DNA from: Acetoanaerobium noterae
Lineage (GTDB): Bacteria; Bacillota; Clostridia; Peptostreptococcales; Filifactoraceae
Assembly (NCBI RefSeq): GCF_900168025.1
Contig: NZ_FUYN01000006.1
Location: 1-64,000 of the forward strand
Reading direction: 5' to 3'
Length of the DNA stretch: 64,000 nucleotides
Position numbers and translations under genes: made by a program. The notes under the pieces are model-generated. The model had not been told where the DNA came from, did no database searches, and saw only the letters and a program-made list of their open reading frames with translations. Positions 34,537 to 37,598 of this stretch are shown piece after piece (the stretch's first letter is position 1; every line of letters starts with the position of its first letter).

Positions 34537-35442
34537 TCAAATCTTGCTGTTTTTCTTAACTGGCAATAAACAGCTAAGCTCTAGATTATTATTTTTAGCA
34601 TCAATTTCGAATATATTTATTCCTTGTCTGTCGTCTAAATAGTATCCTCTGCTATCAATCCAATACATATACATGAATTCTGAAACCCAGGTCAAATATT
34701 TAATCCCATCTGAAAAGTCTGTCATGTCCTGAAATTTCATTTTCAGGACAGCTTTTGATACTTCGAAGGCTTCTACTTTTTTATATTTCATATCGATAAT
34801 TTTTGAAAGCATCTGCTCTGATACTATGATACCTATGTCATAATCCATTTCATTTTGATTTTTGAACCAATTAAAATCATTAGAGCAGAGGACAAATTTC
34901 ATGGTATCTGGAGTTATATGATGTGCATCAAGACTTTGCTCTAGTGTCCTTAGGCTCTTTTCTACTCTAAGGTCAAGACTCCCTCCTCTAATTCCGCTTA
35001 CATCCTCATATACAATATAAAAGGAATCAGAAAAAGACATTTTTAATGAAAATTCTATTTCCAAGGCTTTGAAGGTATCTCTTATCTGGTCTTCTATGTT
35101 CTTGTCAGCTAAAAGAGTGTCTTTTGCAAATTTTGGCGAGATATTAAAAACCTTACTAAAAGCTCTAGAAAAATTAGCGGGTGATGAAAATCCCAATTTT
35201 TCTGCTAGTTTGGTTATTTTTAGATTTTTATCTCTAAATAATAAACCAGCTGAAAGCATGAGCCTGTTGTTTAGATGAAATTCTCTAAAAGGCATCCCTT
35301 TTTCTAATAGAAAAATTCTATGAAAATAAAAAGGAGAATATGAAACTGCTTTAGACACTTCACTCAAGCTTATATTCTTATATACATGAGTAATCGCATA
35401 TAATATTGCTTCATGAGTTTTATCTCTGCATCTTTTTTTCAT
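34537..35442 (-). CDS. AraC family regulator with GyrI-like effector domain
   Basis: This 301-residue protein carries two helix-turn-helix units at the N-terminus (residues about 8-110: ISLSEVSKAVSYSPFYFHRIFL and ITKLAEKLGFSSPANFSRAF), then a C-terminal GyrI/SoxS-type ligand domain (about 140-295). This HTH-first order is typical of Rob-like regulators of drug or stress response. No operator was identified. It lies 61 nt upstream of the CPBP protease gene and 15 nt downstream of the DUF5714 gene on the same strand, so an operon is possible. Confidence 0.84.
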   Translation of the reverse strand: MKKRCRDKTHEAILYAITHVYKNISLSEVSKAVSYSPFYFHRIFLLEKGMPFREFHLNNRLMLSAGLLFRDKNLKITKLAEKLGFSSPANFSRAFSKVFNISPKFAKDTLLADKNIEDQIRDTFKALEIEFSLKMSFSDSFYIVYEDVSGIRGGSLDLRVEKSLRTLEQSLDAHHITPDTMKFVLCSNDFNWFKNQNEMDYDIGIIVSEQMLSKIIDMKYKKVEAFEVSKAVLKMKFQDMTDFSDGIKYLTWVSEFMYMYWIDSRGYYLDDRQGINIFEIDAKNNNLELSCLLPVKKNSKI

Positions 35443-35457
35443 ATTCTCTCTTCACCT

Positions 35458-36231
35458 TTATATATTATAGTATCTGCATTTTTCTTTTCTACAGCCATGT
35501 GGATGTCTATGGCTGTCCATGCAGGTATAATTATAGCTTGTATCTAAGGTTCCTCCTAGGTATTCCTGCGAATATCTACAGGCTGTTTCTAAAGCAGTAT
35601 ACACAAAATTTTTACAGCAACAAGGACCAGCTTGCTTAGATATATCCTCTATGACTTTTGATACTACGAACATTGTTTTTGAAGTTTCTGTATCTTTTGG
35701 ACAGGCCGCTCCTAAAATCACACTGTATACGCTACCTATAGCCGGTGCTATGCCACAGATTCCAGTAAGTCCGCAATAAGCTCCTATAGCTTGTTTTTTG
35801 GTTCTATTTAATGCCTCTTTAATGTCTTCATCTGTTATTCTTATAGTTTTTTCATTTCTAATTGCTGCTATTAATGCTCCTGCGGCTACCCATGCATGCT
35901 CACAGCCGAGCATAGGAAGCTTTGTTTTATCAATTATTTCATTAGCTATCACAAATGGATTTATCCCTTCTGAACAAATACTCATATCATAAATTAAATC
36001 AAAAGTATCTTCTCCATGACAGCTATCACATATATAGTGTCCATTAGGACAACTCACATAGCCTAACTCAGTTTTATTACATTTCATACATGTAAATTCT
36101 TGTCCGCTTTGAAAATAATCTAGCGTTGCTTTGCATACAAGGCAGTTTTCACTGCTTGTGTCGGTCTGCACCCCTGCAGTTTCTGTAGCTGGTCCTCAGC
36201 AGCCCCCTACATGACTAGTTTTATCTATCAT
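35458..36231 (-). CDS. DUF5714 family protein, candidate selenoprotein (UGA codon 12)
   Basis: The obvious frame (GTG at 36171, 237 residues) has no proper ribosome site. Reading upstream in the same frame through one TGA (36198-36196) reaches an ATG at 36231 with GGGAG/GAGG in front, giving 257 residues that start MIDKTSHVGGC-U-GPATETAG. A CTGCA-GGGG-TGCAG hairpin begins 16 nt after the TGA, its loop 21 nt away, matching bacterial SECIS geometry. So codon 12 is proposed as selenocysteine next to Cys11. The remainder has Cys pairs (CLVC, CMKC, CPNGHYICDSC) suggesting a zinc ribbon, then the DUF5714 core LPMLGCEHAWVAAGALIAAI and YCGLTGICGIAPAIG. Function is unknown; redox or metal chemistry is inferred. 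Confidence 0.72.
36166..36179 (-). promoter_or_regulatory. candidate bacterial SECIS hairpin
   Basis: On the mRNA, CUGCA-GGGG-UGCAG forms a 5-bp stem with a G-first tetraloop whose loop starts 21 nt after the in-frame UGA (36198-36196), within the 16-37 nt window known for bacterial SECIS elements. Confidence 0.6.
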
Positions 36232-36308
36232 TTACCTCACTCCCATTTATTTATATCTACCCTTATATAAGCTTACCATAAATCTAATTTTTATCCCAAT
36301 CTATAAAT

Positions 36309-37598
36309 TTACGGCGTAAGCCTCATTTTATCTCTAGGAAAAGCTGAAGCATATCTTACATTGTCAAATCCTAGGAGCATTGAAGTGATTCTCTCTAAGC
36401 CAATTGCAAACCCTCCATGAGGCGGCATTCCATATTTAAATATATAAAGGTAATCCTTAAACTGTTCCTTGGACAATCCTCGTTTTACTATATTTTCTAA
36501 AAGCTGATTATAGTTGTGAATCCTCTGACCTCCAGTTGTTATCTCAAGTCCTCTAAATAATAGGTCAAAGCTTCTGGTTTCGCCTTCACCATAAGGCATA
36601 GTGTACATTGGTCTTTTGCTTTGAGGATAATGTGTTATAAATACAAAATCTGAATTAAACTCTCTCTTTATATACTCTGAAATTAACTTTTCTCCCTTAG
36701 GGCTTAAATCCGTCTGTAAGTCATTTAGGTTATACTTTTCATTTAGTATAGCAATTGCTTCAGACAGTTTCATTTTAGGTATTTGATATGGAACCTTTGG
36801 TAGCTGTGCACCAAGGAGCTCAAGCTCTCTGCTGCATTTACTTTCTACTTCTTTCATCATAAAATCTAATAATCTATTTTCAAGCTCCATAATCTCATAC
36901 TCGTCTTGGATAAATCCAAACTCTACATCAAGGCTTACATATTCATTGAGATGTCTTTTTGTGTCGTGGCTTTCAGCTCTATACACATGTCCAATCTCAA
37001 ATACCCTCTCAAATCCTGCTCCCACCATCATCTGTTTATAAAATTGTGGACTCTGAGCCAAATATGCCTTAGTCTCGAAATAATTTAGCTCAAATAAATT
37101 GCTTCCTCCTTCTGTTCCTTGAGCTACAATCTTGGGTGTAAAAATTTGAGTAAAATCATTTTTAATTAAAAACTCAGAAAAAGCTTGAGCTAAAACAGCT
37201 TTCACCTTAAGCACTGCTCCTAATTTAGGATTTCTAAGTGAAAGCGCCCTATTATTTAGCATCACATCCAAGCTTATATCCATATTTTCCTTGTTTATTT
37301 CAATTGGCAAATCTTCATTTGCAGGAGATAGCATGTCGATAGAAATAACCTGAATCTCCAAGCTTTCTGATTTACCTTGAGCTAATTTTACTTTTCCCTT
37401 AATCTTTATTACGGCTTCTAGCTTTAAATCTTTTATGTCAATAGTTTTTGTATCTATAACGCATTGGACTAGGCCAGATTTATCCCTTAAAATAATAAAG
37501 GCTATTTTCCCAAGCTTTCTTAATCTATGAATCCATCCACTTACAACCACCTCTTGATTTAAATAGCTACTTAGCTCTGCTATCATAATTCTTTTCAT
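36309..37598 (-). CDS. aspS: aspartate-tRNA ligase, archaeal type (probably non-discriminating)
   Basis: This 429-residue class II synthetase has an N-terminal OB-fold anticodon-binding domain (VVVSGWIHRLRKLGKIAFIILRD) and a catalytic domain with motif 2 VYRAESHDTKRHLNE and motif 3 GFAIGLERITSMLLG, ending in FPRDKMRLTP. The short length without the bacterial insertion domain and the ending match archaeal-type AspRS, which often also charges tRNA-Asn for later amidation. The T-box specifier GAC upstream supports aspartate rather than asparagine. GAGGGGA precedes the ATG. Confidence 0.9.
   Translation of the reverse strand: MKRIMIAELSSYLNQEVVVSGWIHRLRKLGKIAFIILRDKSGLVQCVIDTKTIDIKDLKLEAVIKIKGKVKLAQGKSESLEIQVISIDMLSPANEDLPIEINKENMDISLDVMLNNRALSLRNPKLGAVLKVKAVLAQAFSEFLIKNDFTQIFTPKIVAQGTEGGSNLFELNYFETKAYLAQSPQFYKQMMVGAGFERVFEIGHVYRAESHDTKRHLNEYVSLDVEFGFIQDEYEIMELENRLLDFMMKEVESKCSRELELLGAQLPKVPYQIPKMKLSEAIAILNEKYNLNDLQTDLSPKGEKLISEYIKREFNSDFVFITHYPQSKRPMYTMPYGEGETRSFDLLFRGLEITTGGQRIHNYNQLLENIVKRGLSKEQFKDYLYIFKYGMPPHGGFAIGLERITSMLLGFDNVRYASAFPRDKMRLTP

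Follow-up and report, generated by a model that had tools for sequence, protein, structure and literature searches.

The gene at 35458 to 36231 on the reverse strand of the window (the whole stretch of 64,000 nucleotides of Acetoanaerobium noterae DNA that was analysed) very probably encodes a true selenoprotein, in which the UGA at codon 12 is read as selenocysteine (Sec); a probability of about 0.95 is assigned to this reading on the basis of sequence comparison. Judged by its domain matches, the product is a short, stand-alone, single-Sec relative of the N-terminal module of MbdU. The window sequence by itself proves little in this respect, and the reading is settled by comparison, that is, by the conservation of the TGA, by a covarying hairpin, by the lack of restart codons and by the presence of the selenocysteine machinery in the genome. 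The Cys-Sec selenoprotein put forward in the original prediction is thereby borne out.

The frame runs from an ATG at 36231-36229, which is also the start picked by start scoring, through 257 codons to a TAA, with a single TGA inside (36198-36196) that is directly preceded by a TGC cysteine codon. With the TGA taken as Sec, the translation is a protein of 257 residues that begins M...GGCUGPA... and carries Sec12. Direct reading of the sequence confirmed this frame and the ribosome-binding sequence claimed for it, which lies at 36244-36235 (GGGAG at 36244-36240 and GAGG at 36238-36235). The uninterrupted open reading frame, of 237 amino acids, opens instead at a GTG (36171-36169) that lies inside the hairpin described below and, on the evidence of the homologues, is probably a false start for ORF calling. 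The assignment to DUF5714 was also correct, with a Pfam score of 173 bits against PF18978 (gathering cut-off of 26.2).

The TGA was compared among 49 related loci obtained from a scan of genome contigs, and 47 of them carry it at the aligned codon. Of these, 46 were recovered by script as having a TGA upstream of, and in frame with, the conserved ENCxxC motif, while L043 was added by eye, having been overlooked by the scripts because five N downstream break its frame. The row statistics given below refer to a different set of 49, made of 46 of these loci together with L060, L061 and the window gene, with L043 in none of them. The residue before the TGA is a cysteine in 46 of the 49 rows, a glycine in two (L036 and L038) and a tryptophan in one (L032). 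A tryptophan is also found in L043, outside the row statistics, and with these four exceptions the cysteine partner is not obligatory. At L010, in the 5' part of the gene, a TCA replaces the TGA and the letters of the hairpin are still there; Sec may have been lost here recently, or the assembly may be in error. In L028 and its copy L101 the region is apparently lost.

The N-terminal extension that carries the TGA is common to the homologues. The expectation that they would have Cys or Sec at position 12 held for Sec and failed for Cys, given that a Cys codon was seen at this position in none of the loci examined; because the searches favour close relatives, this lack is not proof that a Cys version is absent. 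Within the order, 393 genomes were searched and 81 gave matches; eight of these have the Sec form, with a single TGA inside each match (five loci that duplicated the 49 were excluded). The remaining matches are 24-36% identical and have no TGA inside, the exception in identity being a C-terminal fragment in G095 (61%), and one match (G188) holds a TAA. The G095 fragment (L066, G095:C15:53430-53810) has the appearance of a decayed copy of a close Sec-type DUF5714 gene, its open frame reduced to the C-terminal half. In 398 genomes of the phylum, 20 matches at E 1e-40 or better were found in 19 genomes, and 17 of these contain one TGA. Among the three that lack an internal TGA, the C-U pair lies immediately before the matched segment in L105 and L106, and L101 has the L028 sequence there.

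Downstream of the TGA the window gene carries a bacterial SECIS-like hairpin, CTGCA-GGGG-TGCAG (36179-36166), with a stem formed by 36179-36175 and 36170-36166 and a loop at 36174-36171. The hairpin starts 16 nt and its loop 21 nt after the TGA, so that the 5-bp stem, the GGGG loop and both distances were found in the window exactly as described at the outset. Folded on their own, four stretches from the hairpin region did no better than dinucleotide-shuffled sequences (z-scores between -0.64 and +0.60), and an Rfam scan of 35400-36400 gave no match. Scans for promoters (8 promoter-like sites versus 8.4 in shuffles) and for terminators (3 terminator-like sites versus 1.2) gave nothing decisive.

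The homologues provide the stronger test. A hairpin was counted when, within 60 bases from the TGA, it had at least 4 pairs, a loop beginning 17-21 nt past the TGA and a G at each of the first two loop bases. Such a hairpin is present in 48 of the 49 Sec rows, the exception being L018, where it is imperfect. The corresponding raw count was 50 of 52, which took in three Sec-less rows (L071, L083 and L086) with a chance upstream TGA, and in controls that left the protein unchanged and sampled each gene's own codons the count was 27.4 of 52 on average (range 20-34). The mean energy of the hairpins is -5.14, compared with -1.60 (sd 0.26) in these controls. In a MAFFT alignment of the 49 rows, 89.1% of the cells of a six-pair stem are paired, and pairing falls to 22-50% when the stem is slid out of position. 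Changes on both sides of the stem were found in 51 cells versus 13.4 in shuffles, a value that none of 500 shuffles reached. One of the five covariation measures was unremarkable: all six pairs are doubly changed, but 87 of 500 shuffles match that. The more distant relative L106, at 37-38% identity, has the TGA and a hairpin of other letters at the same place (-7.5 kcal/mol), and L105 has the TGA with a hairpin that is weak by the rule (+0.6). The SECIS-like hairpin has thus been maintained at the SECIS position through compensatory changes across homologues, and the hairpin counts against controls point, like the covariation, to an element of the bacterial type, as had been claimed.

These data bear on whether the TGA could be the ordinary stop of a short leader, with translation restarting at the GTG and the hairpin being regulatory or due to chance. 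Such an arrangement would account for the uninterrupted 237-codon frame, and the hairpin of the window gene, which is not significant when taken alone, scores as terminator-like on the other strand. The homologues speak against it, given that in 40 of the 49 rows the stretch from the TGA to the first conserved cysteine is free of ATG, GTG and TTG, and that 26 of the 49 offer no restart until at least 33 codons after the TGA, by which point the first CxxC has been passed. Moreover, the spacer between the TGA and this cysteine varies by whole codons (16-22), which preserves the frame. With a cysteine kept ahead of the TGA in nearly all rows and a covarying hairpin at the SECIS position, the leader-and-restart model does not fit and is considered very improbable. 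A sequencing error or a fresh nonsense mutation in a Cys-coded gene, for which the sense codon of L010 could be invoked as one case in 49, has a negligible chance of being correct, because other assemblies have the TGA at 47 of 49 loci and a Cys codon at none.

The genome has the means to read the codon. Both selB and selC, whose absence would have spoken against a selenoprotein, are present, with a SelB over its profile cut-off and a tRNA-Sec match of 72 bits, and they are adjoined on the same contig by selD and selA (ORFs named by eye), as selD-selA-selB-selC. The prediction is that SelB and tRNA-Sec insert selenocysteine at the UGA of codon 12, with the hairpin that begins 16 nt further on as the guide. 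ORF calling truncates the selD gene (L088:3550-4524) too, at a TGA (AGUAAKIG), just as it does the window gene. Since selD requires read-through of this TGA, the genome uses Sec at another N-terminal site. SelB is over the cut-off in all eight genomes of the order that have the Sec form. It is also over the cut-off in 29 of the 35 genomes tested overall and, for this reason, is by itself no marker of the Sec form.

The relation of this protein to named selenoproteins qualifies its novelty. The only NCBIfam match at E 0.001 is MbdU (metal-binding double selenoprotein, NF045648), with 339 bits against a cut-off of 600, and residues 22-256 align to positions 33-267 of the 468 of the model. In the selenoprotein table of a 2026 review (PMC13188914), MbdU is entered with a CU motif and two Sec, and for MbdU the review cites Haft and Tolstoy 2025. 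Among the matches listed in the literature search, judged by title, this review was the only one to use MbdU as the name of this protein; no mention of DUF5714 was found in the literature searched, and the deep-Sep paper has no mention of MbdU, DUF5714, NF045648 or PF18978. The eight selenoproteins of A. sticklandii in Table 2 of PMC3091704 do not include this protein, which would count against the selenoprotein reading if A. sticklandii carries the gene. A genuine MbdU is found at L022 (789 bits against 600), which is composed of DUF5714 and DUF2284 with one TGA in each part. Its N-terminal half corresponds to the DUF5714 module of the window protein and has its C-U at the same place, whereas the C-terminal DUF2284 and the second Sec of MbdU have no counterpart in the window protein. 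Pfam finds no DUF2284 in the window protein and none was matched in its own genome, which has one CMD gene, without a TGA. Given that MbdU already contains the C-U DUF5714 module, the claim of a new selenoprotein does not hold for the module as such; what stands is the stand-alone single-Sec form, which is over no NCBIfam 20.0 cut-off (window protein, L002 and L006).

An extra domain or tail is present in six of the 49 rows (L018, L022, L039, L040, L045 and L049), and none was noticed in the others. In L018 (5007-6104), L040 (1573-2694) and L045 (5004-6092), DUF5714 is followed by a CMD/AhpD-like part, and there are three in-frame TGAs, in the C-U pair, in GCEPU and in a terminal ECKTU. The CMD domain is confirmed by Pfam in L018. 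Each TGA of these genes is followed by a SECIS-like hairpin, the first one of L018 being imperfect, and the hairpin of the terminal TGA lies past the stop codon, with its pairing kept and its letters differing among L018, L039, L040 and L045. L039 (5022-5849) and L049 combine DUF5714 with the C-terminal ECKTU tail and have two TGAs, L049 being frameshifted in the middle of the gene. L018, L045 and L039 are over no NCBIfam cut-off, and from their sequences L018, L040 and L045 are likely to be triple selenoproteins without a name (by NCBIfam for L018 and L045).

These partners are shared with another group of proteins. The C-terminal parts of ArsM/AhpD (NF041537), ArsM/DUF2284 (NF041536) and MduS (NF045649) match the DUF5714 partners in L018 and L045 (AhpD plus tail) and in L022 (DUF2284), whereas their N-terminal half, a methyltransferase by name, is replaced by DUF5714 in these three loci. 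The window protein has no partner domain. PF09719, the C_GCAxxG_C_C putative redox-active family, gives a weak match in the MbdU of L022 (21.1 bits, below the cut-off of 27) and no match up to E 10 in the window protein. It is conceivable, though on balance unlikely, that the C-U DUF5714 domain is a selenium-dependent catalytic module and the counterpart of the methyltransferase half of these proteins, occurring alone in the window protein, with DUF2284 in MbdU and with AhpD in the triple selenoproteins. Such a module would keep its Sec for organometal(loid) or corrinoid-linked methyl chemistry, and a need of this chemistry for the selenolate would explain why Sec is kept without a Cys form.

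Further clues to function come from the cysteines of the protein. A ribbon-like part (36144-36016) holds the invariant residues C30, C33, C48, C51, C61, H65, C68, C71 and H72, and it is followed by the DUF5714 helical core (35988-35467; PF18978, residues 82-255). In an alignment of 14 Sec and 18 Sec-less rows, Cys110 and Cys177 are present in all 14 Sec rows and Cys204 in 13 of them, whereas all 18 Sec-less rows have Pro, Pro and Arg or Leu at these positions. The ribbon cysteines and Cys153, Cys159, Cys205, Cys206, Cys237, Cys247 and Cys252 are common to all rows of this alignment. Cys110 and Cys177 are also invariant in a second alignment, of 39 of the 49 rows, and are kept in L106, which has a serine at 204. 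The Sec-less DUF5714 proteins are about 30% identical to the window protein and have the same ribbon and core cysteines, but they lack the N-terminal arm and the Sec, and Cys110, Cys177 and Cys204 are replaced. A tree of 41 Sec rows (the 39 of the second alignment with L105 and L106) and 16 Sec-less rows, made by a quick method and having long branches, places all Sec rows on one side of a branch with 100% support and the Sec-less rows on the other. Two Sec-less domains, L074 and L077, lie in longer open frames (716 and 397 codons) and are possible fusions.

The fact that Cys110, Cys177 and Cys204 occur only together with Sec suggests that Sec12 acts at a core site with these cysteines. A flexible N-terminal Cys-Sec arm would serve this site, which would lie near Cys153/Cys159 and Cys205/Cys206, the pairs common to the compared DUF5714 proteins. 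The Gly-Cys-Sec-Gly of the arm may resemble the mobile GCUG tail of thioredoxin reductases or the vicinal cysteine pairs of mercury enzymes. It is tentatively proposed, at somewhat less than even odds, that the arm works with the Cys110/Cys177/Cys204 site, either in thiol/selenol exchange or as the carrier of a soft metal or an alkyl group. The Cys-Sec pair may be a redox or metal site, as first suggested.

The gene neighbourhood offers a more specific possibility, in which the protein assists corrinoid-dependent methyl transfer or the handling of organometal(loid)s, its Cys-Sec arm accepting or cleaving a methyl group bound to a metal or metalloid. Genes of the URO-D methyltransferase type are found beside L005, L014, L020 and L027 (Pfam) and L008 (sequence cluster). 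At L027 the Sec gene is preceded by URO-D, a B12-binding protein, URO-D, RACo and a CobW-type gene; L005 has URO-D, RACo, CobW, ArsP_2 and URO-D, and L014 has URO-D, DUF6951, DUF1638, CbiM and CobA. The DUF2284 and AhpD partners common to DUF5714 and the arsenite-methyltransferase selenoproteins are in line with this. Nonetheless, a member of the URO-D cluster is near 5 of 53 loci only. Of 24 genomes, 2, which belong to a single genus, have URO-D at a distance of 5 kb or less, against a chance expectation of 0.4-0.5 URO-D genes. Judged by eye, the window gene has no such neighbour. The link is therefore occasional and is taken as a lead only, and the accessory role, while possible, has the odds against it.

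Other neighbours are of little help. Downstream of the window gene lies an AraC-type regulator gene (34537 to 35442, reverse strand, named by eye), with its ATG 15 nt past the stop codon of the Sec gene, and the two are possibly co-transcribed; upstream there is an aspartyl-tRNA synthetase-like gene (by eye), and both neighbours say little on function. The commonest neighbour cluster besides the Sec gene, at 15 of 53 loci, resembles ABC transporters by eye. A methionine-synthase-like neighbour (Meth_synt_2) is over the cut-off in L045 only, is below it in L022 and gives no match in L003. Elsewhere in the A. noterae genome (G000:C2:67606-74102) there is a cluster of four URO-D genes, one of which is a shorter paralogue (a 294-codon frame) with a length like that of the gene beside the Sec gene in Anaerosolibacter.

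The structure model of the window protein (pLDDT 81.5) consists of a beta ribbon and seven helices. Residues 1-26, which hold the Gly-Cys-Sec-Gly, are modelled as disordered, with a pLDDT of 31-34 for the arm and with Cys modelled for Sec. A search of the PDB by sequence for a solved relative gave matches at E 0.17 or worse, and with Foldseek neither the model of the window protein nor that of a Sec-less relative had a match at E 0.001 or better. The core was also considered as an Fe-S enzyme with the L-serine dehydratase/cysteine desulfidase fold, given that the window model aligns with CyuA (9fsl_B) at Z 7.0 (157 aligned, 5.5 A) and with a serine dehydratase (4rqo_A) at Z 5.1 (148 aligned, 4.7 A), the next best being at Z 4.2 or less. 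However, a Z below 8 may reflect merely a common helical arrangement, profile comparison gives a probability below 7%, and the better model, that of the Sec-less relative, aligns weakly with other structures (Irg1, Z 4.5), with SDH_alpha (PF03313)/CyuA not among the matches listed for it. No fold match was reproducible between the two models, and the CyuA/serine dehydratase lead, confirmed neither by profile comparison nor by the second model, is considered improbable.

For genome annotation, the finding means that plain ORF calling truncates this Sec protein at a false start and, by starting at the GTG, drops a residue that is likely to belong to the active site; in related genomes the N-terminus would be lost to annotation in the same way. 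As a minimal form of a selenoprotein module that has no known function and, among the loci examined, no Cys counterpart, the stand-alone protein is handy for biochemistry, and Cys110, Cys177 and Cys204, seen only together with Sec, are direct targets for mutants. The swapping of modules with the arsenite-methyltransferase selenoproteins suggests that anaerobes have a broader selenium-dependent chemistry.
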